A stretch of 39,723 nt of DNA from Verrucomicrobiota bacterium (lineage in GTDB: Bacteria > Verrucomicrobiota > Verrucomicrobiia > Limisphaerales > UBA8199), in contig JARKQH010000284.1 of the NCBI GenBank assembly GCA_029974925.1, forward strand, positions 1 to 39,723, in the 5' to 3' direction. Below, piece after piece: positions 1 through 39,267 of this stretch (its first letter is position 1; every line of letters starts with the position of its first letter). The translations under genes were made by a program, and so were the position numbers. Below the pieces are notes generated by a model. The model saw only the letters and a list, made by a program, of their open reading frames with translations. It was not told where the DNA came from and searched no databases.

Positions 1-1235
1 GCCTGAGCCGCCAGCGTCTCGACGACCACTCTTAAATCCGCCGGAAGGGGCTGTTGGGTGTGATTGGCCAGATTCAGACAGCCGAGGAGCGTCTGTTGGT
101 GAATAAGGGGAATGGCTGCGAAACCGCCGATCCCTTCCTTCTCGAGCGGCCGGTTTTCGCCCTCGAGGACCTCGTTTTGCAGACCGTAAACAGGCTTGCC
201 CGCGCGCACCAACCGGCTGCGCTGTGAGTCCGCGGGGTAGTGCGAAACCGCGGCGATGAACTCCGGGGACAGCCCCCGGCTGGCAGCGAGGCAAAGGCTC
301 CCGTCTTTGGGGTCAACCAGATAGACTCCGCCGCAATCCACGCCTTCGAGGCGGACGGCCTGCTCCAACAGCACCTCCAACGCGCGCTTGAGCTCGCTGG
401 TGGCGCTGAGTTCAACCGCCAGGTCCCGTTGAAGCTGCACTGCGAGTTCGGCGCGCTTCCAGTCGGTATGGTCAATCGAGACGCCCACCAAGCGGATCAT
501 GCGGCCGGTCGCATCGCAAATCCTCCGCCCTTTGGCGAGAATCCAGTAATAGCGGCCATCCTGCATGCGAACGCGGTATTCCTGTTCAAAAGGTTCATTG
601 CGCTGGGTGATTTGCTGCAAGGCCCGGGCCAGCCGGTCCCGGTCCTCCGGGTGAACCTGCCCGAGCAATGCGGCCGAAGAGGAATAGGGCTCGAGGTTTT
701 CGCCCCGAGCCACCGAGGCGGCGTTGTTCGAGTAGGTGATCCGGTCCGTGGCCGGGTCGTATTCCCAAGTAACCATGCGGGCCGCATCCAAGGCGAAGGC
801 GAGACGTTCGCAAGCCTCTTTGTGCTGCAACGCCTCGGTTTTGTACTGGGCGGTCTTGGCCTCGACCAGGCGCGCCAGGTTGCGCGCCAGTCGCGCGGTT
901 TCGGCGACCAGCCAGCCGATGCCTCCCAGGATTGCCAGCCGCGTCAGCGTGTTCCAGGCCAGGACTGCCGGTTGCGGGCTGCCGCGCGTGCTGAACCACT
1001 CCACCCAACCAATAATCAGGGCGGAAAAGAGGGCGATGAGGCCGGCGCCCGTTCTGCCCGCGCACCAACCGGCGTAGGCCACGCCGAACACGTAATACAG
1101 CGTGAAGCTCATTCGCGGCGGCATCAGCGAGTCCACCATCCCGAGCCCCAGCGCGTAAAGAACCCCCAGCGCGATGGCCAGGCCCGGCGAAGTTCGAAGC
1201 AGCCGCGGGCCAGAGGAGGTGTGATTCGCTTGCAT
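1..1235 (-). CDS. Membrane-bound PAS/GAF sensor protein (C-terminal part beyond window)
   Basis: The minus frame is open from an ATG at 1235 to the left edge (about 411 residues, no stop), so the gene is partial. The first 115 residues hold several hydrophobic stretches, consistent with an N-terminal multi-pass membrane sensor. A short helical linker follows, then a PAS domain at about residues 140-245 with a typical PAS/PAC ending (EQEYRVRMQDGRYYWI, then a DATGR turn). A GAF domain starts at about residue 265 and is recognisable by GGVYLVDPKDGSL, AAIPLI and the end VVVETLAAQA. This layout is typical of sensor histidine kinases or diguanylate cyclases, but the output domain lies outside the window, so the class is not determined. 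It is divergent from hisH. A long plus-strand open frame over this gene is a shadow. Confidence 0.8.
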   Translation of the reverse strand, partial: MQANHTSSGPRLLRTSPGLAIALGVLYALGLGMVDSLMPPRMSFTLYYVFGVAYAGWCAGRTGAGLIALFSALIIGWVEWFSTRGSPQPAVLAWNTLTRLAILGGIGWLVAETARLARNLARLVEAKTAQYKTEALQHKEACERLAFALDAARMVTWEYDPATDRITYSNNAASVARGENLEPYSSSAALLGQVHPEDRDRLARALQQITQRNEPFEQEYRVRMQDGRYYWILAKGRRICDATGRMIRLVGVSIDHTDWKRAELAVQLQRDLAVELSATSELKRALEVLLEQAVRLEGVDCGGVYLVDPKDGSLCLAASRGLSPEFIAAVSHYPADSQRSRLVRAGKPVYGLQNEVLEGENRPLEKEGIGGFAAIPLIHQQTLLGCLNLANHTQQPLPADLRVVVETLAAQ

Positions 1236-23592: not shown

Positions 23593-23958
23593 TCAGAATT
23601 TTAGTCCGGCTTCGCGGGCGGCCTCGGCCAGCGCCTTGACCTTGCCGTGGTAACGGGCGCTGCCGCGGTCAAAAACAATTTCAGTAATCCCCTTTTCCTT
23701 GGCCGCCTGGGCCGCCAGGGCGCCGATGATCTTCGCGCTGGCGACATTGGCCGCCAGCTTGTCACGGTCGGGGGCGGCTTTGCTGAGGGTGGAGGCCGCG
23801 GCCAGCGTCACCCCCGCCTCGTCATCTATGAACTGGACGTGGATATTTTTGTTGGTGAAGCACACCGACATGCGCGGACGCTGGCGCGTGCCGCTGATCT
23901 TCTTGCGAACACGCCAGCGGCGCCGCAAGGCCAATTGATGTTTCTGTTCAGTTCTCAT
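23593..23958 (-). CDS. rplR: 50S ribosomal protein L18
   Basis: A 121-residue 5S rRNA-binding protein. The basic start (LRRRWRVRKKISGTRQRPRM) and SVCFTNKNIHVQFIDDEAGV, then the ending VFDRGSARYHGKVKALAEAA, are the normal family pattern. It is followed six bases later by rpsE. Confidence 0.96.
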   Translation of the reverse strand: MRTEQKHQLALRRRWRVRKKISGTRQRPRMSVCFTNKNIHVQFIDDEAGVTLAAASTLSKAAPDRDKLAANVASAKIIGALAAQAAKEKGITEIVFDRGSARYHGKVKALAEAAREAGLKF

Positions 23959-24005
23959 TCCAGGTGAACACGGTCTTGGCCGTGTTTCAAAATGCTCTTT
24001 GACGA

Positions 24006-24542
24006 TTATTGAACGGTCTTGCCTTCCTTGCGCTGCACCCGTTCGTCGCTGTAACGCACCCCTTTGCCCTTGTAAGGCTCCGGCGGGTAGAAGCTGCGCA
24101 GTTCCGCGGCCACCTGCCCCACCAACTGCCGGTCCGGCCCCTCGATGGTTAACTTGGTATTGTCCTCGACCGTCACCTTGACCTGGTCGGGAATGGGGTA
24201 ATTGATCGGATGCGAATATCCCAGGATCAGGTTGACGTTCTTGCCCTGGACGGCGGCTTTGAAACCGACTCCGTGAATTTCGAGCTTTTTGACAAAGCCC
24301 TCGCTGACTCCGCGCACCATGTTGTTCAAGAGGGCCCGGCTCATGCCGTGGAGGGCTTTGGCCTGGGCGTCATCCCCTTGGCGGGCGACAATAATCCTGC
24401 CGCCCTCGACTTTGGCGCTGGTGCGCGCCGGAAGCTGCCAGCTAAGTTTGCCCTTGGGCCCCTCGACCAGCACCTGTTGTCCCTTCACGTCCACCTTGAC
24501 CTTGGGGGGCAGGAGGATGGGTTGTTTGCCGATGCGTGACAT
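24006..24542 (-). CDS. rplF: 50S ribosomal protein L6
   Basis: A 178-residue protein near the factor-binding site of the large subunit. It begins MSRIGKQPILLPPKVKVDVK and ends with YKGKGVRYSDERVQRKEGKT, both strongly conserved. The two repeated L6 domains are complete, the second with NLILGYSHPINYPIPDQVKV. Length equals E. coli L6. Confidence 0.97.
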   Translation of the reverse strand: MSRIGKQPILLPPKVKVDVKGQQVLVEGPKGKLSWQLPARTSAKVEGGRIIVARQGDDAQAKALHGMSRALLNNMVRGVSEGFVKKLEIHGVGFKAAVQGKNVNLILGYSHPINYPIPDQVKVTVEDNTKLTIEGPDRQLVGQVAAELRSFYPPEPYKGKGVRYSDERVQRKEGKTVQ

Positions 24543-24583
24543 GTTAGTTAAAAACGAGTTGAAAATTCAGAACGGGGCGTGAA

Positions 24584-24970
24584 TTACCAAACGTAGCAGA
24601 TCAGTTCGCCCCCCAGGTTTTTCTTGCGGGCCTGGGTGCCGGTCAAAATTCCTTCCGAGGTGGAGAGGATGGCGATCCCCAGTCCGCCACGGACCCGCGG
24701 AATCTCATCCACGCCGACGTAACGCCGGAGGCCGGGACGGCTGATGCGACGCAGCCCTTCGATGATCCCGCGCTTGCCTTGATACTTGAGACGAAGCTTC
24801 AGCGTTTTGATACGGGCGCCTTCCACCGCGGCATCGGCGATGTAGCCCTCGCGCTTGAGGATGCCCGCGATGCTTTCCTTGAGCCGCGAGTGCGGGACGT
24901 CCACGGTCGGCCGCAACGCCCGCTGGGCGTTGCGGATGCGGGTCAGCATGTCGGAAATCGGATCGTTCAT
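24584..24970 (-). CDS. rpsH: 30S ribosomal protein S8
   Basis: A 16S rRNA central-domain binder of 128 residues with the ATG at 24970 (MNDPISDMLTRIRNAQRA). The C-terminal signature GLGIAILSTSEGILTGTQAR and final CYVW are typical. In E. coli this protein represses its own operon by binding mRNA; no such site was sought here. Upstream frame extension is non-homologous. Confidence 0.97.
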   Translation of the reverse strand: MNDPISDMLTRIRNAQRALRPTVDVPHSRLKESIAGILKREGYIADAAVEGARIKTLKLRLKYQGKRGIIEGLRRISRPGLRRYVGVDEIPRVRGGLGIAILSTSEGILTGTQARKKNLGGELICYVW

Positions 24971-24975
24971 AGCAA

Positions 24976-25245
24976 TTACCAACTGGCCTTCGTGACGCCG
25001 GGAATCAGTCCGCTCAACGCTGCTTCGCGGAAAGTCAGGCGCGAGCAGCCAAACTTGCGAAGGTAGCCGTGGCGGCGGCCGCTCATCGAGCAACGGTTGA
25101 CCACGCGGACGGGGCTGGCGTCACGCGGGAGCTTGGCCAGGCTGGCGTAATCGCGCTTGGCCTTGAGTTCGGCCCGCAGCGCGGCGTACTTCCTGACCGT
25201 CTCGGCTTTCCGTTTGTTCCGTTCAATCCATGCAGTTTTGGCCAT
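24976..25245 (-). CDS. rpsN: 30S ribosomal protein S14
   Basis: An 89-residue S14 of the longer, zinc-free type (only two separated cysteines, no CxxC pairs). The C-terminal signature [20 protein letters not shown] then [20 protein letters not shown] is clear. Five bases separate it from rpsH. Confidence 0.96.
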
Positions 25246-25269
25246 AATGCGAATAAAAAAGGGGTTGGC

Positions 25270-25815
25270 TCAGCGGCCTTCGGCGAAAGGCATGCCCATG
25301 AGTTTCAGCAGGTCCAGCGCCTCGTCGTCGGTTTTGGCGCTGGTCACAATCGTGATGTCCATCCCTTGCTGCCGCTTGATTTTGTCCAGGTCAATCTCCG
25401 GAAAGATCGTCTGGTCCGCCACGCCCAGCGAGTAATTGCCCCGCCCGTCGAAGGAGCGCGAGGACAGCCCGCGGAAGTCCCGAATCCGGGGCAACGCCGT
25501 GGCGATGAGGCGGTCAAAGAACTCGTACATCACGTCGCGGCGGAGGGTGACGTGGCAGGCGACCGGCTGGCCCTGCCGCAGCTTGAAGTTGGCAATGCTG
25601 CGGCGCGACTTGCTGATGGCCGGTTTCCGGCCGGTGATCAGCGCCAAGTCCTTGGCCGCGTCGTCCAGGGCGCTCTTCTCCAGCGAGGCGCTGACACCCA
25701 TGTTGATGACAATCTTTTCCATCCGCGGCACCTGGTGCGGGTTGGTGTACTGGCGCTTCTGCTTGAGCGCCGGCACCACTTCGTTGATGTATTTTTGGTA
25801 AAGTCTGGCTTTCAT
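25270..25815 (-). CDS. rplE: 50S ribosomal protein L5
   Basis: A 5S rRNA-binding protein forming the inter-subunit bridge in the central protuberance. The 181-residue sequence includes NPHQVPRMEKIVINMGVS, the GQPVACHVTLRRDVMYEF motif and the C-terminal IDLDKIKRQQGMDITIVTSA. Standard length. Confidence 0.97.
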   Translation of the reverse strand: MKARLYQKYINEVVPALKQKRQYTNPHQVPRMEKIVINMGVSASLEKSALDDAAKDLALITGRKPAISKSRRSIANFKLRQGQPVACHVTLRRDVMYEFFDRLIATALPRIRDFRGLSSRSFDGRGNYSLGVADQTIFPEIDLDKIKRQQGMDITIVTSAKTDDEALDLLKLMGMPFAEGR

Positions 25816-25885
25816 TCGCTAATTTCCGGACCGGGCCGGAGCTGGGGAAATCACAAGTCGCATGCGGTTGGGGGCGGGCATGGGT

Positions 25886-26161
25886 TCAGGAGGCGGCGGG
25901 GGCCGCGCTGCGCTTGGCCGCCCGGGCGTCGAAGCGGTCGGCCTTCATCACGTTGGAAATGTGAATGGTGCCTTCGCGTTCAACGATCTGCCCCTGCGGA
26001 TACTGCTGGCTCTTGCGCATGTGCTTCTTGATCATGCGGACGCCCTCGACGATCAGGCGCTGTTTCTTGCCGTCAACCGTGATCACCCGCCCGCGCTTGC
26101 CTTTCTCGGCGCCGGCGATCACGACCACTTCGTCGCCTTTCTTCACGTGGAAACTGTGCAT
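25886..26161 (-). CDS. rplX: 50S ribosomal protein L24
   Basis: A KOW-motif assembly initiator protein, 91 residues from the ATG at 26161. FHVKKGDEVVVIAGAEKGKR is the KOW segment, followed by VEGVRMIKKHMRKSQQYPQG and EGTIHISNVMKAD. The short Ala/Ser C-terminal tail is a local addition. Upstream residues in the same frame overlap rplN and are not homologous. Confidence 0.95.
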   Translation of the reverse strand: MHSFHVKKGDEVVVIAGAEKGKRGRVITVDGKKQRLIVEGVRMIKKHMRKSQQYPQGQIVEREGTIHISNVMKADRFDARAAKRSAAPAAS

Positions 26162-26192
26162 AATGTTGCTGCTGGATGCCCGGCCGCCGCGG

Positions 26193-26558
26193 TCAGATGA
26201 CCTCGGGGGCGAGGGACACAATTTTCATAAATTTCAGGTCCCGCAACTCGCGGGCGACCGGCCCGAAAATGCGGGTGCCGCGCGGGTTGAGTTCCTTGTC
26301 AATGATCACGATGGCGTTGCTGTCAAAGCGGAGGTAGGAACCGTCCTCGCGGCGAATCGCGTTGCGCGTGCGGACCACCACGGCATCCACGACATCGCCC
26401 TTCTTGACCGTGCCGTCGGGAGCGGCCTCCTTGATGTGGGCCTTGATGATGTCCCCGATGCGGGCGTAGCGCTGGTTGCGGCCCAGGACCCCGATGGCCG
26501 CCGCGCGCTTGGCGCCCGTATTGTCGGCCACATCCAGGATGGAACGAACCTGTAACAT
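26193..26558 (-). CDS. rplN: 50S ribosomal protein L14
   Basis: A 121-residue beta-barrel protein of the subunit interface. It starts [20 protein letters not shown] and carries [20 protein letters not shown] and [20 protein letters not shown], all diagnostic. Standard length and position. Confidence 0.97.
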
Positions 26559-26570
26559 AGATAAATCTCC

Positions 26571-26879
26571 TTAGGCGGTTGCCGGCGTGAGTTCCGCGGC
26601 GCGCTCGATAATCTCGACCAGGCGCCAGCGTTTGGTTTTGGACACCGGGCGGGTTTCCTCGATGCGAACCCGGTCGCCGGGCCGGGCCTCGCCTTTTTCG
26701 TCGTGGGCGTAAAACTTCTTGTAACCCGTCACCACCTTCTTGAAGCGGGGGTGCGGATAACGCCGTTTGACCACGACGATGATGGTTTTGGCCATCTTGT
26801 TGGAGATGACCTCACCCACACGCTCCTTGCGGTGACCGCGGGCGGGGGCAGCCGGGGGTGTAGTTACGGAGTCAGACAT
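26571..26879 (-). CDS. rpsQ: 30S ribosomal protein S17
   Basis: An OB-fold 16S rRNA-binding protein. The core starts at [20 protein letters not shown] and includes [20 protein letters not shown] and [19 protein letters not shown]. An N-terminal addition of about 16 residues (Ser/Thr/Pro/Ala) and a short tail make it 102 residues (E. coli 84). Confidence 0.96.
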
Positions 26880-26888
26880 AGCAATCGG

Positions 26889-27095
26889 TTAGGCCGCTTT
26901 GCGACGCAGCGCGGAAATTTGGGTTTCGATGCGGGCGATGTCGCGCCGCAGGGTGCGGAGCCGGGCGGGCTTTTCCAACTGGGCGCTCGCCTGCTGCAGC
27001 CGCAGGTTGAAAATCTCCTGCCGCAGGTTGCGGCTATCGGCCAGCAGCTCCGGCAGCGTCTTTTCCTGGATCTCTTTGCGTTTGGTTTTCTTCAT
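26889..27095 (-). CDS. rpmC: 50S ribosomal protein L29
   Basis: A 68-residue helical protein at the tunnel exit that helps form the docking site for SRP and trigger factor. The sequence KTLPELLADSRNLRQEIFNL then LRTLRRDIARIETQI matches the family, with the usual two-helix layout. Nine bases before rpsQ. Confidence 0.94.
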   Translation of the reverse strand: MKKTKRKEIQEKTLPELLADSRNLRQEIFNLRLQQASAQLEKPARLRTLRRDIARIETQISALRRKAA

Positions 27096-27110
27096 GGCGG
27101 CAAGCGCGGG

Positions 27111-27530
27111 TTACCCGACCCGGTGGCGGGAAATAAACTTGGTTTTGATGGGCAGCTTGGTGGCGGCCAGACGCAGCGACTCCCGCGCCACCGCCTCCGT
27201 GACCCCGTCCACCTCGAACAGCACGTTGGCCGGACGAATCACCGCCACCCAGGATTCGAGGGGGCCTTTGCCCTTGCCCATACGGGTCTCGAGCGGCTTC
27301 TTGGTGAAGGACTTTTGGGGGAATACCCGGATCCACATCTTGCCATGGCGCTTCATGTTACGGGCGATGGCGACCCGGGCGGATTCGATTTGTTTGGTGT
27401 CGAGCCAGCAGCGCTCCATGGCCATCAGGCCATACTCTCCAAAGGCAACCGTGTTGCCCCGCGTGGCCAGGCCAGCGCGGTTGCCACGGTGCATCTTGCG
27501 ATACTTGACTCTTTCGGGCATCAAGGGCAT
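27111..27530 (-). CDS. rplP: 50S ribosomal protein L16
   Basis: A 139-residue protein next to the A-site tRNA. Signatures: ERVKYRKMHRGNRAGLATRG, MERCWLDTKQIESARVAIAR, KMWIRVFPQKSFTKKPLETR and MGKGKGPLESWVAVIRPANV. It is the arginine-rich bacterial form and its length is normal. The start ATG at 27530 gives MPLMPERVKYRK; an in-frame methionine three codons later is an alternative. Confidence 0.97.
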   Translation of the reverse strand: MPLMPERVKYRKMHRGNRAGLATRGNTVAFGEYGLMAMERCWLDTKQIESARVAIARNMKRHGKMWIRVFPQKSFTKKPLETRMGKGKGPLESWVAVIRPANVLFEVDGVTEAVARESLRLAATKLPIKTKFISRHRVG

Positions 27531-27546
27531 AGGTCAATCCTCAAAA

Positions 27547-28218
27547 TCAGATGGAGCTCGCTACCGGTTCAGGCTGGGGCTGGGCCTTCTGCTTCTTGGT
27601 GTCCCCCTTGCAAACCCAGCATTTGATGCCGAGTTTTCCGTAAACCGTGCGGGCCTCGGCAAAGCCGTAGTCAATTTCCGCCCGCAGCGTGTGCAGCGGC
27701 ACCCGGCCCCAGTGGTACTGCTCGACCCGGGCCAGTTCCGCCCCGCCCAGCCGCCCCGCGCAACGAATCTTGATTCCCTCGGCCCCGAAGTCCTTCGCCG
27801 TTTGGAGCGCTTTCTTCATCGCCCGGCGGAACGAAACGCGGCGTTCAAGCTGCAGCGCGACGTTTTCGGCCACTAATTGGGCGTCGGTCTCGGGCTGCTT
27901 GATTTCCACAATATCCACGTAGATTTCCTTCCCGGTCATCCGGCTGAGCTCCTCCTTGAGCTTGTCAATCTCCGCGCCCTTCCGTCCGATGACGATCCCC
28001 GGCCGGGCGGTCAGAATGGTGATCCGGCAGCGATTGGCGGCCCGTTCAATCAGAATCTTGGGCACCGACGCCGATTCGAGCTTTTTCTTGAGCAGCTCGC
28101 GAATCTCGCGGTCTTCGGTCAGCAGTTTGCCGAATTCCTTCTTGCCGGCGAACCACTTGGAACGCCAGTCGCGGTTGACCGCGACCCGAAGGCCGACTGG
28201 ATTGGTTTTTTGTCCCAT
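27547..28218 (-). CDS. rpsC: 30S ribosomal protein S3
   Basis: A 223-residue head protein of the mRNA entry channel with helicase-related function. [20 protein letters not shown] opens the protein, a KH-2 RNA-binding domain is marked by [20 protein letters not shown], and the C-terminal domain has [20 protein letters not shown] and [21 protein letters not shown] short Lys/Gln/Pro tail ends the protein. Confidence 0.97.
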
Positions 28219-28227
28219 AGGTGCGAG

Positions 28228-28581
28228 TTATTCGTCTGACAAAACAATCTTGATATGGCAGTTGCGCTTGAGAATGGGCCCGGCGGAGCCGCGGGCCTTG
28301 GGGGTGAACCGTTTGTAGGTGGACGCGGTTTGAGCCACGGCTTCCTTGACGCGCAGACGGTCGGTTCGCAACTGGCTGTATTCTTTATGGTGCGTCTTCA
28401 AATCCTCGGCGTTGGCGATGGCGGATTTCAGCGTCTTGGCCACGAAACGGGCGCCTTTCCGCGGGGTGACGGCCAGAGCCGCCTGGGCGTGGGCCGCCGA
28501 CAATCCCTGAATCTGGCGCACCACTTCGCGCATTTTCTGCGCCGACATGCGCACATTCTTGGTGATGGCTTGGACTTGCAT
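28228..28581 (-). CDS. rplV: 50S ribosomal protein L22
   Basis: A 117-residue protein lining the nascent chain exit tunnel. KNVRMSAQKMREVVRQIQGL is the conserved start, and the tunnel loop with KRFTPKARGSAGPILKRNCH is intact. Ends HIKIVLSDE. Starts four bases after the rpsS stop. Confidence 0.96.
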   Translation of the reverse strand: MQVQAITKNVRMSAQKMREVVRQIQGLSAAHAQAALAVTPRKGARFVAKTLKSAIANAEDLKTHHKEYSQLRTDRLRVKEAVAQTASTYKRFTPKARGSAGPILKRNCHIKIVLSDE

Positions 28582-28585
28582 ACGG

Positions 28586-28867
28586 TTACTTGGCTTCGGC
28601 CTTGGCGGTGTGGGCGCCGTGTTTCTTGAAGGTGCGCGTCAACGAGAATTCCCCGAGCCGGTGGCCAACCATGTTTTCGGTGACGAACACCGGGTTGAAC
28701 ACCTTGCCGTTATGCACGTTGAAAGTCAGGCCGACAAAATCCGGCGTGATCATCGAGCGCCGCGACCAGGTCTTGATCGGCGCTTTGGATTTGGCTTCTT
28801 TGGCCTTCTGGATTTTCTCCAGGAGGTGGAAGTCAACAAACGGACCTTTCTTAATGGAGCGTCCCAT
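28586..28867 (-). CDS. rpsS: 30S ribosomal protein S19
   Basis: A 93-residue head protein that pairs with S13. [40 protein letters not shown] and [20 protein letters not shown] are all diagnostic of S19. Located between rplB and rplV as in the S10 operon. Confidence 0.97.
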
Positions 28868-28879
28868 AAGGGGTAAATC

Positions 28880-29734
28880 TTACTTTTGTTTCATCGGCCG
28901 GCCATCCCGCCGCACCAGAATGAAGCGGTTGGAGGCTTTCTTCTTGTGCCGTGTCCGATAGCCCTTGGCCAGCAAGCCCCACGGCGAGGTCAATTGCTGC
29001 CAGCCACCGCCCGACTTGGCCTTTCCGGCGCCGCCGCCATTGGGGTGATCCACCGGGTTGCGCGCCACGCCGCGGTTGATGGGGCGAATGCCCAGGTGCC
29101 GCGAGCGGCCGGCTTTGCCCAGCACGACGTTCTCGTGTTCCGGGTTCCCCACCTGGCCGATGGTGGCATAACAATTCTCGTTCACCCGCCGGATTTCGCC
29201 CGACGGAAGACGGATTTGCGCATAACCTTCGTCGCGGGACATCAGGGTGGCCGACGAGCCGGCGCTGCGCACCATCTGGGCGCCGCGCCCGGGGGTCAGT
29301 TCGATATTATGAATCGGCAGACCCACTGGAACAGTCCGCAGGGGCAGGCAATTGCCCACCTCGGCGGGGGCGTTGGGGCCGCTCATCAGCTTGGCGCCGA
29401 CCTGCAAACCCAACGGCGCGAGGATGTAGGCCTTCTCGCCGTCCGCGTATTGAAGCAGCGCCAGACGGGCCGACCGGCCGGGATCATACTCAATCGCCGT
29501 CACCGTCGCCTCCACCCCGTGTTTCTTCCGCTTGAAATCCACCAGGCGGATTTTCTGCTTGTGGCCGCCGCCAATTCCGCGCGCGGTCACCCGGCCATAG
29601 ACATTGCGCCCGCCGGTGCGCTTGCGGATCTCGACCAGGCTCTTTTCGGGCTTGGTCTTCGTAATGTCGCTGTAGTCCGAATATGCGACGTAGCGCAATG
29701 ACGGAGTCAGCGGTCTAAATGTCTTTACTGGCAT
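28880..29734 (-). CDS. rplB: 50S ribosomal protein L2
   Basis: A 284-residue protein needed for subunit association and peptidyl-transferase assembly. The RNA-binding region SAGSSATLMSRDEGYAQIRL and the loop NPVDHPNGGGAGKAKSGGGW are present; the first His of the HP.GGG loop is kept and the second position of the usual HPHGGG is Asn. It is the first gene of this operon: upstream is a 266-base non-coding region and then a gene on the other strand, so rpsJ, rplC, rplD and rplW are not linked here. No strong ribosome binding site precedes the ATG. Confidence 0.97.
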   Translation of the reverse strand: MPVKTFRPLTPSLRYVAYSDYSDITKTKPEKSLVEIRKRTGGRNVYGRVTARGIGGGHKQKIRLVDFKRKKHGVEATVTAIEYDPGRSARLALLQYADGEKAYILAPLGLQVGAKLMSGPNAPAEVGNCLPLRTVPVGLPIHNIELTPGRGAQMVRSAGSSATLMSRDEGYAQIRLPSGEIRRVNENCYATIGQVGNPEHENVVLGKAGRSRHLGIRPINRGVARNPVDHPNGGGAGKAKSGGGWQQLTSPWGLLAKGYRTRHKKKASNRFILVRRDGRPMKQK

Positions 29735-30000: not shown

Positions 30001-32028
30001 ATGAAGACCCTTCTGCAAGCTGGCAAATGCGCAATGACCGGGCTCTGCCGTCGGTGCGTGATGCTGATGACCCTGGCGTTGGCCGCCACCGTCGTATCCG
30101 GCGCCCCGCCCCACGAGCCGATGCCCACCTTGCGCGTCCAAACCGACCGTCCCGGCGCCCGCATTAACGCCGCCATGTGGGGACTGTTTTTCGAAGACAT
30201 CAATTTCGGGGCGGATGGCGGCCTCTATGCCGAGTTGGTCAAGAACCGCTCTTTCGAGTTTCCCAATCCCCTGATGGGCTGGACCCCGCTTCACCCAGCC
30301 GGCGTCGAAATCCGGCAGGATGCCCCACTGAACGACGTCAACTCCCATTACGTTCGAGTCACGGCCAACGAGCGCCCGGCTTCGGGTCTGGTCAACGAAG
30401 GCTTTCGCGGCATCGGACTTCACGGCGGCAAGGCCTACGAGTTCTCCGCGTGGATTCGAGCGGCAGGCGGCTCGCCGGTCCTGACGGTGGAGCTGGTGTC
30501 CGGTGAGGGCCGGGTTTTGGCCGCCACGCGTCTGAAGAATTTCTCCCCGGGCTGGAAACAATACTTCGCGCGGCTGCGCCCGCAACAAACCGACTTCAAG
30601 GCACAGTTGCGAATCCAGGTTCAGGGGCCGGGCGCACTGGATCTGGACATGGTCTCGTTATTTCCGCGCGACACGTGGAAGGGGCGTCGCGGGGGCTTGC
30701 GGGCGGACCTCGTGGAGATGCTGGCGGCGATGAAGCCGGGATTTCTGCGCTTTCCCGGCGGCTGCATTGTTGAAGGGCGTTACTTGACCAACCGTTACGA
30801 CTGGAAAACGACCCTCGGCGCTCCGGAGACACGCAAGCTGATCATCAACCGCTGGAACAACGAATTCCGTCACCGCCCCGCCCCGGACTATTATCAATCC
30901 TTCGGGCTGGGCTTTTTCGAGTATTTCCAGCTTTGCGAAGATTTGGGGGCCGAGCCGATGCCCATTCTCAACTGCGGCATGGCCTGCCAGTTTAATTCCG
31001 GCGAGCTCGCCCCGCTGGAGGAACTGGACTCGTACATTCAGGACGCCCTGGACCTGATCGAATTTGCCAACGGCCCGGCCTCCACCCGCTGGGGCTCGCG
31101 ACGCGCGGCCATGGGCCATCCCGCGCCCTTTTGCATGAAACTGCTGGGCATCGGCAATGAGCAATGGGGACCTCAGTACATTGAACGTTACGCGCGCTTT
31201 GCCCGCGTGCTCAAGCAACGGCATCCGGAAATCCAATTGATTTCCAGCGCGGGGCCGGCTCCCGCCGATGACCGTTTCACCTTCGCCTGGAACAAACTGC
31301 GCGAACTCAAGGCCGACATTATTGATGAGCATTGCTATGCCGCGCCAAAATGGTTTTTCGACAATGTCCACCGCTACGACCATTACGACCGCCACGGTCC
31401 CAAGGTCTTCATGGGCGAATACGCGGCGCAAAGCGTGGCCATTGCCAGCCCCGACAACCGGAACACCCTCGAGTGCGCCCTGGCCGAGGCCGCCTACATG
31501 ACCGGCATGGAACGCAACGCGGACGTGGTGCGCATGGCCTCCTACGCGCCCTTGTTCGGGCACGCCGAAGCCTGGCAATGGACCCCCAACCTGATTTGGT
31601 GCGATAACCTCCGCGTTTACGGCACCCCCAATTACTACGTCCAGTTGTTGTTCAGCCGAAATCGGGGCGATGTCGTCCTGCCGCTCGACCTGTTCGACGG
31701 CAACGCCACCGGTGCAACGCCGGCGGACCGCCCGCCGCGCCTGTTCGCCAGCGCCGTCCTGGACGAGCGATCGCACGAAGTGATTCTCAAGGTTGTCAAT
31801 CCCTCGGACCAGGCGACCCCCGCCAGAATTCTCCTGGCTGGCTGCGCCAAGGCGGGCCCCGTCGTCCACGCCCACGTGCTTCGCGGGCGAAGCCTGAACG
31901 AACAGAACTCTTTCGAAGACCCCATCCGCATCGCCCCCGTCACGCAACGGCAACGAATCAATGGTCCCGCCTTCGAGACGACCCTCCCGCCGTATTCCTT
32001 CACCGTGTTGCGCGTTCGCGCCCGCTGA
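30001..32028 (+). CDS. GH51 alpha-L-arabinofuranosidase, secreted
   Basis: Releases terminal arabinose from arabinan or arabinoxylan side chains. The 675-residue protein has an N-terminal signal sequence (VMLMTLALAATVVSGA, cut near residue 35), the GH51 start INAAMWGLFFEDINFGADGG, a CBM-like beta-sandwich insertion at about 95-220, the (beta/alpha)8 catalytic domain, and a C-terminal beta domain. The acid/base is E387 in GIGNEQWG and the nucleophile is E473 in FMGEYAA, the spacing expected for clan GH-A. ATG at 30001 is the first start; ATG at 30034 would still leave a signal peptide. No ribosome binding site is visible. It stands divergent from the ribosomal operon, 85 bases before the protease gene. 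Confidence 0.92.
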   Translation: MKTLLQAGKCAMTGLCRRCVMLMTLALAATVVSGAPPHEPMPTLRVQTDRPGARINAAMWGLFFEDINFGADGGLYAELVKNRSFEFPNPLMGWTPLHPAGVEIRQDAPLNDVNSHYVRVTANERPASGLVNEGFRGIGLHGGKAYEFSAWIRAAGGSPVLTVELVSGEGRVLAATRLKNFSPGWKQYFARLRPQQTDFKAQLRIQVQGPGALDLDMVSLFPRDTWKGRRGGLRADLVEMLAAMKPGFLRFPGGCIVEGRYLTNRYDWKTTLGAPETRKLIINRWNNEFRHRPAPDYYQSFGLGFFEYFQLCEDLGAEPMPILNCGMACQFNSGELAPLEELDSYIQDALDLIEFANGPASTRWGSRRAAMGHPAPFCMKLLGIGNEQWGPQYIERYARFARVLKQRHPEIQLISSAGPAPADDRFTFAWNKLRELKADIIDEHCYAAPKWFFDNVHRYDHYDRHGPKVFMGEYAAQSVAIASPDNRNTLECALAEAAYMTGMERNADVVRMASYAPLFGHAEAWQWTPNLIWCDNLRVYGTPNYYVQLLFSRNRGDVVLPLDLFDGNATGATPADRPPRLFASAVLDERSHEVILKVVNPSDQATPARILLAGCAKAGPVVHAHVLRGRSLNEQNSFEDPIRIAPVTQRQRINGPAFETTLPPYSFTVLRVRAR

Positions 32029-32113: not shown

Positions 32114-35100
32114 ATGACCAAACGAGCTTTTTTTGCCATCGCACTTGCGGGCGCGTTGCTTTCCCCCCGGGCGGGCACTTGGGCCCAGGAGACGGTTAAC
32201 ACCACGCCGGACGCGCGCATGCTCCGCTACCCGGACGTGTCCGCCACCCACATCGTTTTCGTTTACGCGGGGGACATTTGGGTCGTGCCCAAGACCGGCG
32301 GCCAGGCCCAACGGTTGAGTTCCCCCCGGGGTGAGGAAACCTTCCCGCGATTCTCCCCCGACGGCAGCCAGATCGCCTTTAGCGGCAACTACGACGGCAA
32401 CACGGATATTTACGTCGTGCCGGTCACCGGCGGGCTGCCCCGGCGGCTGACCTACCACGGCGGCCTGGACCGCATGCTGGAATGGTACCCGGACGGCAGG
32501 AAGTTGCTGTTCGCTTCCTCCCGAACGAGCGAGAAAGACCGGTTCAACCAACTGTATTCCATCTCGGTGGAGGGAGGGCTGCCCGAAAAGCTGCCCGTCC
32601 CCTACGGCGAATTTGGCGCCATTTCCCCCGACGGCCGCACCCTCGCCTACGTGCCCATCACGGTGGATTTTGCGACCTGGAAGCGCTACCGCGGCGGCAT
32701 GAACCCCGCCATCTGGCTCTTTGACCTGAAGACCTTCACCGCCCGGAATCTCACCGGCAACCAGGCGGGCAACTCCCAGCCCATGTGGCACGGCTCGACC
32801 CTCTACTTCGTCTCCGATCGCGACAAAAACAAGCGGGCGAATCTTTGGGCCTACGACCTCAACACGAAAAACTTCCGCCAAATCACCACCTTCGAGGAAT
32901 TCGACGTTCATTTCCCCAGCATCGGCCCCGAAGATATCGTCTTCGAGAACGGCGCGCGCCTTTACCTGTTGAACCTCGCCACCGAGAAACTCACCGAAGT
33001 CAGCGTCCAGGTCCTCACGGACCGCGCCACGCTCAAACCGCGCACCGAAAACGTGGCGTCGTTGGCGCGCGACCCGGACATTTCCCCCTCAGCCAAACGG
33101 GTCGTGTTCACGGCCCGCGGCGAGTTGTTCACCGTCCCGGCGGAGCACGGTGTCATTCGGAATCTCACGCGCAGTTCCGGCGTGGCGGAACGCTACCCTG
33201 TCTGGTCGCCCGACGGCAAAACCATCGCCTATTTCAGCGATCGCACCGGGGAATATGAGCTGACCGTGCGGCCTGCCGACGGCTCCGGCGCCGAAGAAGT
33301 TCTGACCCGCCTGGGCCCGGGCTTCCGCTACCGCCCCTCCTGGTCGCCCGACAGCAAGAAAATCATGTTCGTGGACCAGGCCATGCGCATCCACCTCCAC
33401 GATTTGGAAAAAAAGGAAACCACCGAGGTTGCCCGGCAATTGTGGCACTATCATGACGCCCTGGCGCGCATGCGCTTTGCCTGGTCCCGGGACAGCCGCT
33501 GGGTGGCTTTTGCCAAGGACCTCGACAACCTGCACACCGCCATCGTGATCTATGACACGCGCGAAAGAAAGCTGCACCAGGTGACCAGCGGTTACTACGA
33601 CGATGACAACCCGGTTTTCGACCCGGACGGGAAATACCTTTACTACCGCTCCGGCCGCAGCTTCTCCCCCCTTTACAGCGACCTGGACAACACCTGGGTC
33701 TATCCCAACACCCATCTGTTGATGGCTGTCTCGCTGCGCAAGGACGTGCCCAGCCCGCTGGCGCCCCGCAACGACGAGGAGCCGGCCAAGGACAAGCCGG
33801 CCAAAGACCCGGACAAGAAACCGCCGGCCGACGACTCGGATGCGAAGCCGGAGGATGCCGCCAAACCGGAAGCCGGCGCTGACGCAAAGGAAAAGTCCGA
33901 AGCCAAGGATGAATCCAAGGAGGCCAAGCCCGAGACCAAAACGGAACAGAAGCCGGAGAAGGAGCCCAAGGCGCTGGAAATTGACCTGGCCGGCTTGGAA
34001 GACCGCGCGGTGGTGCTCCCTGCCAAGGCGGGCCGGTACGACGACCTCATCGCGGGCAGCGGCAAATTGCTGTACCGCCGCCTGCCCCGCGCGGGAGCCG
34101 CCGAAGAGCGGAGCACGCTCGTGCTTTACGACCTTGAGAAACGCGAGGAAAAGACCGTCCTGGATGATGTGGACGACGTCATCCCCACGGCGAAAGGCGA
34201 CAAGCTCCTCGTGCGGCGCAAGGGCGAGTACTGCATTATCGAGCCAAAGGAAGGCCAGAAGTTCGAGAAAAAGCTCAACCTGGCCGGATTGGAGACGGTG
34301 GTGGACCCCGTGGCCGAATGGGAACAATTGTTCACCGAAGCCTGGCGCTTGGAGCGCGACTATTTCTACGACCCCAATCTCCACGGGGTGGACTGGAACC
34401 TCATGCGGGAACGTTATTCGGCCCTCCTCAAGGACGCGGTCACGCGGTGGGATGTCAATTACCTGATTGGCGAGCTCATCGGCGAACTCAACTCCTCCCA
34501 CACCTACCGCAGCGGTGGGGACGTGGAAAACCCGCCCCAGCGTCCCGTGGGTTACCTGGGCGTGGATTATGCCCTGGAGAACGGCGCTTACCGCATCAAA
34601 AAAATCATCGAAACGGCGTCATGGGACGCCGAACAACGCAGCCCGCTCAAGGCCCCGGGCGTGAATGTCAAGGAAGGCGATTACCTCCTCGCGGTCAACG
34701 GACAGCCGCTGGACATCTCGCAGGAACCCCATGCCGCATTCCAGGGCCTGGCTGACAAACCCGTGATCCTGACGGTAAACGACAAGCCTTCGCCGGACGG
34801 CGCGCGCGAGGTGCTGGTCCAGACGCTCTCGAGCGAATACCGGCTGCGGCACCTGGCCTGGATCGAAAGCAACCGCAAGCGCGTCGAGGAAGCCACCGGC
34901 GGCAAAGTGGGCTATGTCTATGTCCCCGACACCGGCCGCGGCGGACAATCCGAACTGGTGCGGCAATTTCGCGCCCAGTTCAACAAGGCCGGCCTGATCA
35001 TTGACGAGCGCTTCAACAGCGGCGGCCAGATCCCCGACCGCTTCGTCGAATTGCTCGCCCGCAAGACGCTCAACTACTGGGGCGTGCGGGACGGCGCGGA

Positions 35101-35509
35101 TTGGGCCTGGCCCCAAGTCGCGCACTCCGGCCCCAAGGCCATGCTCATCAATGGCTGGAGCGGCTCCGGCGGGGATTGTTTCCCGTTCTACTTCAAGAAG
35201 GCCAAACTGGGGCCGTTGGTCGGCACCCGCACCTGGGGCGGCCTCATCGGCATGACAGGCAACCCCCTGCTGATTGATGATGGACGCGTTACCGTCCCCA
35301 CCTTCGGCATCTACGATACCAACGGGAATTGGATCATCGAGGGCCACGGGGTGGATCCGGACGTGCCCGTGGTGGATCACCCCGGCCTCATGGCCAAGGG
35401 CCGTGACCCGCAGCTCGAGCGGGCGATCACCGGGGTGATGAAGGCCCTCAAGCGGAATCCGCCAACCGAAGTCAAAAAACCCCAATACCCCGTTCGCGCC
35501 GGGCGTTAA
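32114..35509 (+). CDS. Tricorn-type S41 serine protease, secreted
   Basis: A 1131-residue protein with a signal peptide (FFAIALAGALLSPRAGTWA, cut near residue 24). WD/TolB-like beta-propeller repeats cover about 35-535 (PRFSPDGSQIAFSGN, PVWSPDGKTIAYFSD, RPSWSPDSKKIMFVD). A linker of about 75 residues made mostly of Lys, Glu, Asp, Pro and Ala follows (about 545-620), then the C1 region, a PDZ domain (about 810-890) and the S41 protease domain. Tricorn catalytic residues align: H796 in NSSHTYR, nucleophile S1018 in GWSGSGGDCFP, and E1076 in WIIEGHG; the S-to-E distance (58) equals that of archaeal tricorn as I recall it. Likely degrades peptides in the periplasm. Confidence 0.93.
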   Translation: MTKRAFFAIALAGALLSPRAGTWAQETVNTTPDARMLRYPDVSATHIVFVYAGDIWVVPKTGGQAQRLSSPRGEETFPRFSPDGSQIAFSGNYDGNTDIYVVPVTGGLPRRLTYHGGLDRMLEWYPDGRKLLFASSRTSEKDRFNQLYSISVEGGLPEKLPVPYGEFGAISPDGRTLAYVPITVDFATWKRYRGGMNPAIWLFDLKTFTARNLTGNQAGNSQPMWHGSTLYFVSDRDKNKRANLWAYDLNTKNFRQITTFEEFDVHFPSIGPEDIVFENGARLYLLNLATEKLTEVSVQVLTDRATLKPRTENVASLARDPDISPSAKRVVFTARGELFTVPAEHGVIRNLTRSSGVAERYPVWSPDGKTIAYFSDRTGEYELTVRPADGSGAEEVLTRLGPGFRYRPSWSPDSKKIMFVDQAMRIHLHDLEKKETTEVARQLWHYHDALARMRFAWSRDSRWVAFAKDLDNLHTAIVIYDTRERKLHQVTSGYYDDDNPVFDPDGKYLYYRSGRSFSPLYSDLDNTWVYPNTHLLMAVSLRKDVPSPLAPRNDEEPAKDKPAKDPDKKPPADDSDAKPEDAAKPEAGADAKEKSEAKDESKEAKPETKTEQKPEKEPKALEIDLAGLEDRAVVLPAKAGRYDDLIAGSGKLLYRRLPRAGAAEERSTLVLYDLEKREEKTVLDDVDDVIPTAKGDKLLVRRKGEYCIIEPKEGQKFEKKLNLAGLETVVDPVAEWEQLFTEAWRLERDYFYDPNLHGVDWNLMRERYSALLKDAVTRWDVNYLIGELIGELNSSHTYRSGGDVENPPQRPVGYLGVDYALENGAYRIKKIIETASWDAEQRSPLKAPGVNVKEGDYLLAVNGQPLDISQEPHAAFQGLADKPVILTVNDKPSPDGAREVLVQTLSSEYRLRHLAWIESNRKRVEEATGGKVGYVYVPDTGRGGQSELVRQFRAQFNKAGLIIDERFNSGGQIPDRFVELLARKTLNYWGVRDGADWAWPQVAHSGPKAMLINGWSGSGGDCFPFYFKKAKLGPLVGTRTWGGLIGMTGNPLLIDDGRVTVPTFGIYDTNGNWIIEGHGVDPDVPVVDHPGLMAKGRDPQLERAITGVMKALKRNPPTEVKKPQYPVRAGR

Positions 35510-35521: not shown

Positions 35522-35815
35522 ATGACCCCAACCCAGGTGCTTTGGATCTACATCGTGCTGCTGGTAATCGGCGGCCTCATCGGCTTTTTCAAGGCCAAGA
35601 GCCGCGTTTCACTCATCATGTCAGTGGTCTTCGCCGCTGCCCTGAGTCTGTGCGCCGCGGACATCATCTTCAAATCCTACGTGGCGGATATTCTCCTGGC
35701 CATGCTGCTGGTGGTTTTCACGATGCGCCTGACCAAGACCAAAAAATTTATGCCGGCCGGCATGATGCTCGTCATTACCCTCGCTGCCCTGGCCCTCCGC
35801 CATTTGCGGTTTTAG
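35522..35815 (+). CDS. TMEM14 family small membrane protein
   Basis: A 97-residue protein with three or four hydrophobic helices: WIYIVLLVIGGLIGFFKAKS, LIMSVVFAAALSLCAADIIF, ILLAMLLVVFTMRLTKTKKF, and AGMMLVITLAALALR. The GGxxGF.KAKSR.SL start and the FMPAG segment before the last helix match the TMEM14/UPF0136 family. In eukaryotes members move fatty acids or porphyrins; bacterial function is unknown. It starts 12 bases after the protease stop, so it is likely in the same transcript. Its stop overlaps the stop of the convergent SpoIID-like gene. Confidence 0.85.
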   Translation: MTPTQVLWIYIVLLVIGGLIGFFKAKSRVSLIMSVVFAAALSLCAADIIFKSYVADILLAMLLVVFTMRLTKTKKFMPAGMMLVITLAALALRHLRF

Positions 35816-38800
35816 CGCGGCAACACCACGACCCGGTAAAACCCCGCGGGCCCGGCCAGGGTGTTGGTGAACCGTGCCTGCCCTGTGCTGGCAACGATGT
35901 CTGGCGTCAGGTCATTCCACTGACCCGTCCCGAGCTGTTCGCGGTATTGCACCCGGTACCCCTGGCCCGGAATCGCGCTCCAGCTCAACACCACACTCCC
36001 CGCCTCCACCCCGCCGGTTTGAAGCGCCGGCCGTGGCGCGACCTGGATATTAAAGGTTCGGCTGGCGCTGAGCGGGGGCGTCCCATTGTCCTCGACCCGC
36101 ACGGTTACGGGGTGGACCAGGTTGGCTTGGGCATCCCCAGGGGTCCAGTGGAACAAACCGGACACCGGGTCAATCCCAGCGCCCGCCGGAGCCCCCGGAC
36201 TGAGACTGTAAGTGAGGGTGTTGGCCGGCAGGTCGCCATCCGTGCCCTGGCAATCAATGGCCAGCGCCGTGCCCGCATGCACGGCCTGATCGCTGATCAA
36301 CGGCAGCGCCGGTGCACTGTTCACCTCGGCAACCGTCACGCTGAAGCTGTTCGTAGCGCGGAGCGCGCCCGGACTGTCGTCCGTTGCCACAAGGGACACC
36401 CCGTAGGTGCCGGGCCCATCGCTCTCGGTCGGGGTCCAGGTGAAGAGCCCCGTGACAGGATTCACCGCGGCGCCCGCCGGCGCGCCGGGAGCCAGGGAAT
36501 ACGTGACGGACCGGTCCGTCACCACCGCGAAGTTGTCCAAATAGAGGTTATACACGCCCAGGCCGGCCATCGGCACAATCGCCAGGTGTTCCAACACCCC
36601 CAGACCCGAGGCGGTGGAGAGCACGCCATTCCCACCCGTGAAGCTGAAAACCGGCTCGTGGGGAAGATCAAACGTCAAGGTGGTCCAATTGCTGGCCGCA
36701 ACCACCCGCGTGGGCACCGGCGCGGTGCCGGATTTCCCGGTCGCCCCCACCCACTCAATACTGCTGCCGCTGGTGCCGCCGTCCGCACCAATCGCGGTGC
36801 CGGCGGGGGTAACGGTTTCGCGGCAGCCCACCGCAATCCCGATCGGCTTGTCCGTATAAATGTCGAAGCGCAACTTGCGGGTGAAATCAATCACCGGGTT
36901 GGGCAGCGTGGCCGCCCCGGAAGTCGTCAGCCGCAGCCACGGGTCGCTGGCATTGGTAAACTGGCAACTGACCCGCAGCACCAAACCGGTGCCGTGTCCG
37001 TTCGTCACGTAGGTGTCCGTGACCGCCGCCAGGTCCGGGGCCGACCCCACAAATGACGAGGTGGACCCCGAATATCGCGGATAACGGAACAGCACCACGC
37101 CGTTGGCCGTTTCGCTTATGAACGGCTCAAAATCCGTGATCAATTGGATGCCTTCGGAGGCCGTGGCGACGGCCGGCAGCGACAGCGTGTCCAGCTCGGC
37201 GACGGCCTGGGAACCGATGGGATTCCAAACGGGCGGCATCCCTGGCGTCGTGGCCCCGGCCACCGCGCCGTAACCACTGGCCCCGCCGGCGTTGTAAGCC
37301 TGCACCCGATAAAACCACGTGCTGCCCGGTGCCAGGTTCCGGTCTGAAAAGCTCACCGTGTTGGCGTCCAGCGTGGCCAGACGTATCCAGGGGCCGGTGC
37401 TGGCCGGAGCGCGCTCGACCCGGAATCCGGCCTCCACGTCGTCGCTGTCCGTCCAGCTCAAGTTGATTTGCGACGGGCTCACGGCCGTCGCGGTCAGGCC
37501 GCCGGGCGCCGCCGGGACCGAGAAAACCCGCTCGAGATAGTTCTCCGCGGACCATCCAATGGTCGGCCCGGCATCGTTCCATTGCACCTGGTACCACGTG
37601 AACCCTTTGCCATCATTGGTCACAACCACCGGACCGCCAAGGATCACCCCGGTTGCGCCCGCCGCCTTGGTGGTGACCAGCGCGCAGGCCGTTCCGTTGG
37701 TAATCGTCCCCCCGGCGCACGCGCGCACATCCAGCGTTTTGAGCGCCTTCACATCGTCCCCAACCACCAGGCTCGCTCCTTTGACGAAGGAAAGCGTCGG
37801 GTAATAGTGCTGCACAATCCAGGTCCAGCTCCGGCGCGGATAGCCGTTCGGCGTCGCGTCGCTGGTCGTCCGCCCCGCCATTCGCCGCCCCGTCGCCCAA
37901 CGCGCCGTGCCCCACTGGCACATGCCTCGTCCATGCCCGTACGTGGTTTCGCCCGCGCAGACCGGATCGTATAAACAGCCGCCGGTGGGGGCGGTGAAAC
38001 CGTCGCCGCAGCTCGCGCCCAGTTGGTTGTTCTCCGCCGAGTACTCCGTGCCGGCAATCGCCGTGCCCGAGAGCAGCACCCAGTCCGCCGTGTAAGTGAC
38101 CGCCCGGTCGGTGAGGGAATTGAAGTTGGCCGGGTTGTAAACCTGGCAGGCGCTGGTGCCGCAAATGTCATACGTGCTGGTGCTCCCGGCGTTGTTGATC
38201 CGGCTGATCGCGTAACATCGGGCCGCCACCGCCCCGGCGTTCAAACTGTTGCTTCCCCCCAAAATGTTGCCCCAGCTTGCAATCCATTCCGAAGGCAGCA
38301 CCGCCCGCGTGTAATACGTCAGGCTCACGTAATCAATCGTCACGTTGTCCGACCGCAGCACCCGGATGTTGCGCGGCACCCGCACGGTCGCGTTGGTCGC
38401 CGCGGTGGCAAATTGAATTAGCGGTTCGTCAGCAGCCGGCGCCTCGCCGGACTCGACCGTCTCGGTATCGCTCCCCGGCCCGGCCGCCGGCGCACCGGTC
38501 GTTCCCGGCGCCCGCCGCCGCGACAGACTCTCGTCCACCACCACACGGCCCCCGCCCCGCTCCAGCCGAATGCGGTAGGTCCAGTCCCCCCGCGACCACA
38601 GCTCCAAAGGCCGGCGCTCTTCCGTCCGGTAACCCGCTTTCTCGAATTCCAGACCGGCCTCCTGGCCCGCCGCCGGCACCGGCACGTGCAGTCGGAAGAA
38701 CCCCCGCCGGTCGCTGGCCGCGGCAACCCCGCTGGGCCATGACTTGACGACAACTCCCGCCAGCGGCGCGCCCGAATCCTCGTCCACAATGAAGCCCTGA

Positions 38801-39267
38801 ATGAGGGTCGCCCCCTCGCGCACCAGGCCGGCTATGACATCCGGATGCAGCTCCGCCGGCTCTTCCACCGGGTCCAGCAGAAACTGCAGCCGATACGGGT
38901 TGTCCGCCTCCAGTTGAAACTCGCCAGCCACCGGCCGGTAACCTTCCGCCATCGCCCGCAACGCGTAACGCCCGCGCGGAAGCCGCAACGCCGCGCGCCC
39001 CGCCGCGTTGACGTCCTCCCGCCGCAGGCGCGTCTCAGGCTGCCCGGCGCCCAACCCCCGGGCGGCCACCTCTTCCGGCTGCACCGCGTAACCCGTGGCG
39101 CTGTCCAGGAACCGGAGTTGGACACCTGGGTGAGTCGGACTGGCCGCCAACTCCGACGCGCTGTCTCGTGCCCAAGCTTCGTACAAGCCCGTTTGCACCG
39201 CCGCCCAAACAGCCATCACCGCCCAGCCCTTACCAGACAAAATCGAAGTCAAAACGCGGAAAAACAT
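35812..39267 (-). CDS. Large secreted multidomain protein with SpoIID/LytB domain
   Basis: The 1151-residue frame starts at ATG 39267 (GAGGA ten bases upstream); signal sequence GWAVMAVWAAVQTGLYEAWA. Order: two carboxypeptidase-regulatory/PEGA-like domains (about 48-250); a Pro/Gly/Ala linker; SpoIID/LytB domain (about 310-490) with YTRAVLPSEWIASWG, AVAARCYAISRI, CQVYNP and GHGRGMCQWGT; an SH3-like segment; FnIII (about 584-672); an Ig-like domain (677-705 plus 917-975) split by a beta-sandwich (706-916, from LITDFEPF to LYLDNFAVV); a second Ig-like domain (980-1075); and a C-terminal beta region with LSWSAIPGQGYRVQYREQ, common in secreted verrucomicrobial proteins. SpoIID domains cleave or bind peptidoglycan glycan strands. 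The glutamate in PSEW is at the position of the SpoIID catalytic Glu. Likely a cell-wall-acting or adhesive exported protein; substrate unknown. Confidence 0.85.
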   Translation of the reverse strand: MFFRVLTSILSGKGWAVMAVWAAVQTGLYEAWARDSASELAASPTHPGVQLRFLDSATGYAVQPEEVAARGLGAGQPETRLRREDVNAAGRAALRLPRGRYALRAMAEGYRPVAGEFQLEADNPYRLQFLLDPVEEPAELHPDVIAGLVREGATLIQGFIVDEDSGAPLAGVVVKSWPSGVAAASDRRGFFRLHVPVPAAGQEAGLEFEKAGYRTEERRPLELWSRGDWTYRIRLERGGGRVVVDESLSRRRAPGTTGAPAAGPGSDTETVESGEAPAADEPLIQFATAATNATVRVPRNIRVLRSDNVTIDYVSLTYYTRAVLPSEWIASWGNILGGSNSLNAGAVAARCYAISRINNAGSTSTYDICGTSACQVYNPANFNSLTDRAVTYTADWVLLSGTAIAGTEYSAENNQLGASCGDGFTAPTGGCLYDPVCAGETTYGHGRGMCQWGTARWATGRRMAGRTTSDATPNGYPRRSWTWIVQHYYPTLSFVKGASLVVGDDVKALKTLDVRACAGGTITNGTACALVTTKAAGATGVILGGPVVVTNDGKGFTWYQVQWNDAGPTIGWSAENYLERVFSVPAAPGGLTATAVSPSQINLSWTDSDDVEAGFRVERAPASTGPWIRLATLDANTVSFSDRNLAPGSTWFYRVQAYNAGGASGYGAVAGATTPGMPPVWNPIGSQAVAELDTLSLPAVATASEGIQLITDFEPFISETANGVVLFRYPRYSGSTSSFVGSAPDLAAVTDTYVTNGHGTGLVLRVSCQFTNASDPWLRLTTSGAATLPNPVIDFTRKLRFDIYTDKPIGIAVGCRETVTPAGTAIGADGGTSGSSIEWVGATGKSGTAPVPTRVVAASNWTTLTFDLPHEPVFSFTGGNGVLSTASGLGVLEHLAIVPMAGLGVYNLYLDNFAVVTDRSVTYSLAPGAPAGAAVNPVTGLFTWTPTESDGPGTYGVSLVATDDSPGALRATNSFSVTVAEVNSAPALPLISDQAVHAGTALAIDCQGTDGDLPANTLTYSLSPGAPAGAGIDPVSGLFHWTPGDAQANLVHPVTVRVEDNGTPPLSASRTFNIQVAPRPALQTGGVEAGSVVLSWSAIPGQGYRVQYREQLGTGQWNDLTPDIVASTGQARFTNTLAGPAGFYRVVVLPR

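Follow-up and report, generated by a model that had tools for sequence, protein, structure and literature searches.

Can one domain of a bacterial cell-wall enzyme be housed in a loop of another, and is such an arrangement a recent accident or an inherited feature with a task of its own? This question is raised by a SpoIID gene of a Verrucomicrobiota bacterium (order Limisphaerales; assembly GCA_029974925.1, contig JARKQH010000284.1, positions 1 to 39,723). The whole stretch of 39,723 nucleotides is referred to as the window. The gene lies on the minus strand (39267..35812), is uninterrupted and encodes a protein of 1,151 amino acids, with an alternative in-frame TTG start at 39342. An initial annotation had proposed that an immunoglobulin-like (Ig-like) or cadherin-like repeat of this protein is split by an inserted beta-sandwich and had suggested recent shuffling or a designed display of the inner domain.

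A cadherin-like repeat split by a guest domain

The segments quoted for the split repeat were located at residues 678-697, 701-706, 709-716 (LITDFEPF), 908-916 (LYLDNFAVV) and 918-937. All of them are real; the numbering had to be shifted, as the split domain lies one residue and the neighbouring repeat (residues 983-1078) three residues later than first given. The first part of the split domain, up to strand B, covers residues 678-706 (37150..37236, minus strand), and the second part, from strand C onward, residues 918-981 (36325..36516, minus strand). Pfam finds PF05345 (He_PIG) in the right-hand part alone, with 33.8 bits at a cut-off of 24 and over profile positions 36-96. Using a local He_PIG profile, for which each insert and 60 residues on both sides were masked in training, the joined outer parts reached 71.4 bits, compared to 6.9 bits for the left and 62.4 bits for the right part alone. 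The real left part also outscored each of 1,000 shuffled versions (73.0 vs at most 71.8), a margin that is clear but thin because the left part is short.

A composite AlphaFold2 model of residues 674-982, built from 31 sequences of the same arrangement, was obtained with a pLDDT of 92.3 and a pTM of 0.85. Its outer parts together match the cadherin repeat 8egw_A (Z 12.0, 93 residues, 2.0 Å, range 2..309) as well as 5uz8 (Z 11.9) and Rib-long 6s5w (Z 11.4), with a model range from 1 or 2 to 309. For cadherin, Rib and SraP repeats in general, Z values of 11.3-12.0 and 88-96 aligned residues over about 1..309 were observed. The inner part of the same model aligns with another fold (9cyn_B, Z 13.5, range 31..246). 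Pfam, masked profile, shuffles and model agree, and sequence profiles and predicted structure thus confirm that one cadherin-like (He_PIG) domain is made up of residues 678-706 and 918-981. The proposal of a split domain therefore stands: structure prediction does join the outer segments into one domain, and the sandwich of about 210 residues claimed between LITDFEPF and LYLDNFAVV is recovered as a separate domain of 211 residues (residues 707-917; 36517..37149, minus strand). According to the strand order of the model, this guest interrupts the chain of the first He_PIG domain in the B-C loop.

The same loop carries a DxD motif in ordinary repeats, which in cadherins helps to bind calcium. 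DxD is complete in 53 of the 59 uninterrupted repeats with filled columns (81 repeats altogether), compared to one of 31 split copies, for which the positions were picked by eye; the split repeat of the window has ATASE instead. The guest thus sits where, in the first cadherin-like repeat, the DxD-bearing B-C loop had been. As the chain ends of domains with this fold usually lie close together, both linkers can enter one loop. Two linkers would hold the guest more rigidly than a tandem domain is held, and attachment at both ends would fix its orientation on the stalk.

Fold and sequence of the guest

Searched alone, the insert has no match in Pfam and NCBIfam at E≤1 or among PDB sequences at E≤10, so that the suggested profile search returned no described continuous family and no described family of carbohydrate-binding modules (CBMs) in Pfam or NCBIfam includes the window copy by sequence. 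A search of PDB sequences with a guest profile of 70 rows also gave no match. These rows are the 70 copies found in 42 reading frames, a sample within one order that was taken from 40 fetched regions in addition to the window. When the copies were compared to Pfam one by one, six of the 70 weakly matched the xyloglucan-binding domain SGBP_B_XBD (best E 7.9e-4). One host protein (L065) passes the whole-protein cut-off of this family (28.7 vs 26.4 bits), with the best stretch within one guest copy. In the libraries searched, the guest family appears undescribed, and neither the domain nor its nesting is described in any title or abstract start found in the open-access PMC literature, which is weak evidence of absence.

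The insert's own AlphaFold2 model (pLDDT 96.1, pTM 0.92) matches the flagellar sheath protein FlaA1 best (9cyn_B, Z 13.3, 164 residues, 3.5 Å, 11% identity). Further whole-length matches are a xanthanase module (Z 12.2), a laminarin-binding CBM and a mannanase CBM (both Z 11.7), followed by CBM11 (Z 11.0) and NDUFAF1 (Z 10.7), and Foldseek returned the same kinds of fold. Since the insert aligns over its whole length with CBM-type structures, the models support a CBM or galactose-binding-like beta-sandwich, which bears out the fold guessed from the letters.

The same results could be read in another way, namely that the guest has a structural or protein-binding role, such as that of a spacer or a lateral contact between stalks, and does not bind sugar, in the manner of FlaA1 or NDUFAF1/CIA30. 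The top rank of FlaA1 by Z, the presence of NDUFAF1 in the list and the lack of a Pfam family match for the window copy would fit this idea. We consider it unlikely, as nine of the ten top-ranking structures are either free CBMs or modules from carbohydrate-active enzymes, and as the weak matches to the xyloglucan-binding domain and the L065 host that exceeds its cut-off also speak against it.

Recurrent fusion to cell-wall enzymes

The Pfam scan covered 37 of the 42 host proteins in full, and the N-terminal pieces of five were rescanned at a looser limit. SpoIID was found in nine hosts, Amidase_2 in 13, Peptidase_M23 in one and GHL10 in two. SpoIID, Amidase_2 or M23 wall enzymes are therefore present in 23 of the 42 sampled hosts, i.e., in the window protein and 22 further ones; one amidase host has LGFP repeats as well. 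As a control, we collected 24 reading frames with He_PIG at E≤1e-5 from two genomes. SpoIID or Amidase_2 occurred in six of the eight frames with the guest, which were confirmed by a search scoring all candidates, compared to none of the 16 frames without it for SpoIID, Amidase_2 or M23 (Fisher 2.1e-4, a value that overstates independence, as the guest-bearing frames are partly paralogues).

Based on the recurrent fusion to SpoIID, Amidase_2 and M23 enzymes, we infer that the guest holds wall enzymes on glycan. On the whole it seems fairly likely that it is an undescribed CBM-like module anchoring peptidoglycan enzymes to glycan, and it probably helps wall-cutting enzymes to hold sugar strands. 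In such a mechanism, the guest would bind cell-wall glycan, perhaps peptide-stripped strands, and once bound it would keep the wall enzyme on its substrate. SpoIID of Waddlia is reported to bind peptidoglycan and to cleave glycan strands (PMC6635528), and DigH is described as degrading peptide-stripped glycan (PMC12288456).

The domain layout of the window's host protein is given here for the minus strand. Behind two CarboxypepD_reg-like domains (residues 86-131, 38875..39012, and residues 156-218, window positions 38614-38802; Pfam PF13620/PF13715), it has a SpoIID domain (residues 310-398, 38074..38340), which was identified by PF08486 (41.9 bits, cut-off 23) and by alignment to PDB 4rwr and 5i1t. 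The alignment to these structures includes a conserved catalytic-type glutamate in 'PSEW' and the region of a C-terminal GHGxGxxQ motif, and both are invariant in the six sequences aligned out of ten matches; the glutamate would correspond to position E88 of Bacillus subtilis SpoIID. A fibronectin type III (FN3) domain (residues 587-666, 37270..37509; PF00041) precedes the split repeat, and an intact He_PIG repeat (residues 983-1078, 36034..36321; Pfam match span 991-1077) follows it. As one part of the overall explanation favoured here, the protein is rather likely a wall-acting SpoIID enzyme of putative activity with a stalk built from FN3 and cadherin-like repeats.

Several findings weigh against a guest that anchors wall enzymes to glycan. 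FlaA1, the top structural match, and NDUFAF1 have the same fold and are not known for sugar binding. The SpoIID part of the window protein misses the cut-off of NCBIfam TIGR02669 (57.3 vs 83.3 bits). Eleven of the 42 hosts have no recognised wall enzyme, two stand-alone proteins among them being judged by eye. The N-terminal 260 residues of two further hosts (L046 and L052) look like M15 peptidases by a motif seen by eye and remain below the Pfam cut-off (E 0.15 and 0.0068). GHL10 is a wall enzyme by our own assumption, and DigH presumably belongs to it, a placement for which no paper was found in the open-access PMC literature.

Four of the 42 hosts start at a contig end and have no enzyme part in the sequence. 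Two others start in this way, too; SpoIID is present in the first of these, and the second belongs to the 11 without a recognised enzyme. Five hosts (L050, L066, L069, L071 and L082) share, as judged by eye, an N-terminal part of about 250-330 residues. It has no Pfam match, and these proteins end in the guest.

An alternative ligand was also considered: the guest might be a CBM for exopolysaccharide or an environmental polysaccharide, by which the wall enzymes would stay in the surface matrix. Enzymes that act on polysaccharides of plants, algae or bacteria are the source of the closest solved modules, one host (L061) has a malectin domain, and two stand-alone copies are flanked by a signal peptide and a PEP-CTERM-like sorting tail (both by eye). 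The PEP-CTERM signal has been linked to exopolysaccharide (PMC1569441). These points are countered by the recurrent partners, among which at least three unrelated types of peptidoglycan enzyme are found (SpoIID, Amidase_2 and M23), and we regard a matrix ligand as rather doubtful. If the guest does bind glycan of the wall, stripped or intact, it would be a wall-targeting module common to SpoIID, amidase and M23 enzymes of Verrucomicrobia and possibly also a probe for wall glycan.

Distribution and positions of the guest

Relatives of the guest were found in 25 of 196 genomes of the order at E≤0.01, 16 of them at E≤1e-10. Among 387 genomes drawn across the phylum, the genome of the window alone matched at E≤1e-10, and genome contigs, when scanned, yielded four loci, all from Verrucomicrobia or Pedosphaera. 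The order-wide search scored at most 15 candidates per genome, and a search of three genomes without this cap showed further long copies in one of them (G063), in which several dozen guest copies were noted (44 matches at E≤1e-4, including permuted ones described below). First-round matches spanning 170 positions or less were omitted before the profile was built, and the second round again gave 70 copies. The genome of the window has one plain copy besides permuted kin. Another match in this genome (contig C30, E 0.4) was dropped as chance, as were four candidate loci (L031-L034); the frames of the first three look non-coding by eye and the fourth has an internal stop.

The same B-C loop is occupied in 31 of the 70 copies, 29 of them by profile test, including the window, and two by eye. 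A further 29 copies were placed by eye next to the first strand of a repeat. We rejected this site as a clean insertion inside the repeat, as the profile test gave no spanning domain. One copy (L065) is in a third loop, with a profile junction at about 65, seven are at the C-terminus of the protein and two are the stand-alone copies. As the guest also occurs at C-termini and on its own, it is independent of the host loop. No relatives were found in plasmid or phage records (E≤0.01) or in viral contigs, where the search reaches close relatives only; there is therefore no sign of a mobile carrier.

A sister family with permuted order

A second group of relatives has the two halves of the domain in reversed order. 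It comprises a protein encoded on contig C419 of the window's genome (L110:164-2398, minus strand) and ten further loci (L111-L120). With the plain profile, the second half precedes the first in all 11 proteins examined. The weak guest matches of the order search (L026-L030) belong to this family, too. With a doubled profile, the L114/L029 protein gave a single alignment that starts at position 99, runs across the natural ends and stops at 293 (84.9 bits), compared to two pieces of 30.4 and 41.5 bits with the plain profile. Single-piece alignments were likewise obtained for L120, L116 and L119 (108.9, 96.8 and 87.3 bits). Altogether, the doubled profile crosses the natural ends in nine of the 11 proteins, in five of the nine over part of the domain only, and does not report the other two (L113 and L115). 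Judged from these alignments, the sister family looks circularly permuted relative to the guest. By eye, a signal peptide, an Ig-like part and the same N-terminal part recur in the permuted proteins.

At E≤1e-15, a search profile built from four sequences detected the permuted form in 14 of the 196 genomes of the order; this tally excludes three rows in which plain copies are matched over their first half alone. The 20 permuted copies comprise 15 contiguous and five interrupted ones. The interruption looks FN3-like by eye, and one of the five interrupted copies is from the window's genome, which is also the only one with the permuted form in the phylum-wide search.

We tentatively offer a broader reading, which appears possible and still short of probable: the guest would be an undescribed wall-glycan-targeting family, confined in the phylum sample to one order of Verrucomicrobia, that has moved to at least two cadherin-like loops, to C-termini and into stand-alone proteins, and whose permuted sister, cut at one beta-hairpin, can take up an FN3-like guest of its own. 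In that case, nesting and permutation would be a regular means of shaping domain architecture, by which the presentation of a binding module next to wall enzymes is fixed. The recurrent nesting with loss of DxD, together with the permuted sister family, provides a natural series on domain insertion and rearrangement in which the fold is kept.

Age of the arrangement

At E≤1e-30, the SpoIID protein has ten matches in eight of the 196 genomes of the order, which belong to six taxonomic families. In nine of the ten, including the window protein, SpoIID and insert share one reading frame and the insert occupies the same loop; the tenth (G163, L090) is cut off at a contig end ahead of the repeat. 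An empty site, i.e., an uninterrupted repeat in a SpoIID relative, was not found among these ten matches. On a quick tree of the 70 copies, six changes are required to account for the five kinds of position (minimum four, mean of shuffled labels 30). Many deeper branches of this tree are weak; the window copy groups with two SpoIID copies from one genome of another family with a support of 99. No exact word longer than 7 nucleotides is shared within 60 nucleotides of both insert borders, so no insertion scar is visible.

Since the insert loop is shared by every one of the nine SpoIID copies that are complete in this region and the tree needs six changes, the recent shuffling suggested at the outset is not supported. 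From these comparisons, we take the arrangement to be old and mainly inherited, with few relocations between sites. A recent chance shuffle, or an artefact of assembly or annotation that joined two genes in frame, could be suspected from the single plain copy in the window's genome and from the absence of the SpoIID gene in nine other sampled genomes of the same family (E≤1e-30). This explanation is highly improbable given 30 other copies of the same arrangement in other genomes, the lack of a shared word at the borders and a guest position that is conserved along the tree. The SpoIID gene as such is patchy, being present in the window's genome and in five other families at the same threshold, which could reflect transfer or loss.

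Neighbouring genes

A Tricorn-like S41 protease gene (window 32114-35509, plus strand) lies tail to tail with the SpoIID gene, and nearby an alpha-L-arabinofuranosidase with its own CBM_4_9 domain is encoded (window 30001-32028, plus strand). The same contig harbours genes for ribosomal proteins (L2, L6, S5), SecY and an M24 metallopeptidase (window 20010-29734, minus strand).

Comparison with known systems

Nested domains and carbohydrate-binding modules are both known kinds of building block, and what appears undescribed here is this guest family. The outer parts of the window repeat resemble He_PIG/cadherin-like repeats (PF05345) by profile and fold, and an intact copy adjoins; the repeat differs from these by the interruption of 211 residues in the B-C loop and by the lost DxD. 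The whole insert has a fold like CBM11 (1v0a), the laminarin-binding module 8qx6 and the xanthanase module 6fhn (Z 11.0-12.2) and, like CBMs, it is attached to a carbohydrate-active enzyme, in the window SpoIID. It differs from these sandwiches by an identity of 15-18%, by the lack of a Pfam CBM match and by its nesting in another domain, and its binding is putative. FlaA1 is the best structural match and is set apart by 11% identity and another biological setting.

In function, the guest would play the same part as the wall-targeting modules SPOR, LGFP and LysM, namely to hold enzymes on glycan, with a fold that differs from that of SPOR. For SPOR, binding to denuded glycan is reported (PMC6895207). 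A parallel in architecture is the integrin alpha-I domain, which is described as a ligand-binding domain inserted into a domain of another protein (PMC12422189). The proteins are unrelated, and here the nested domain is part of a bacterial wall enzyme.

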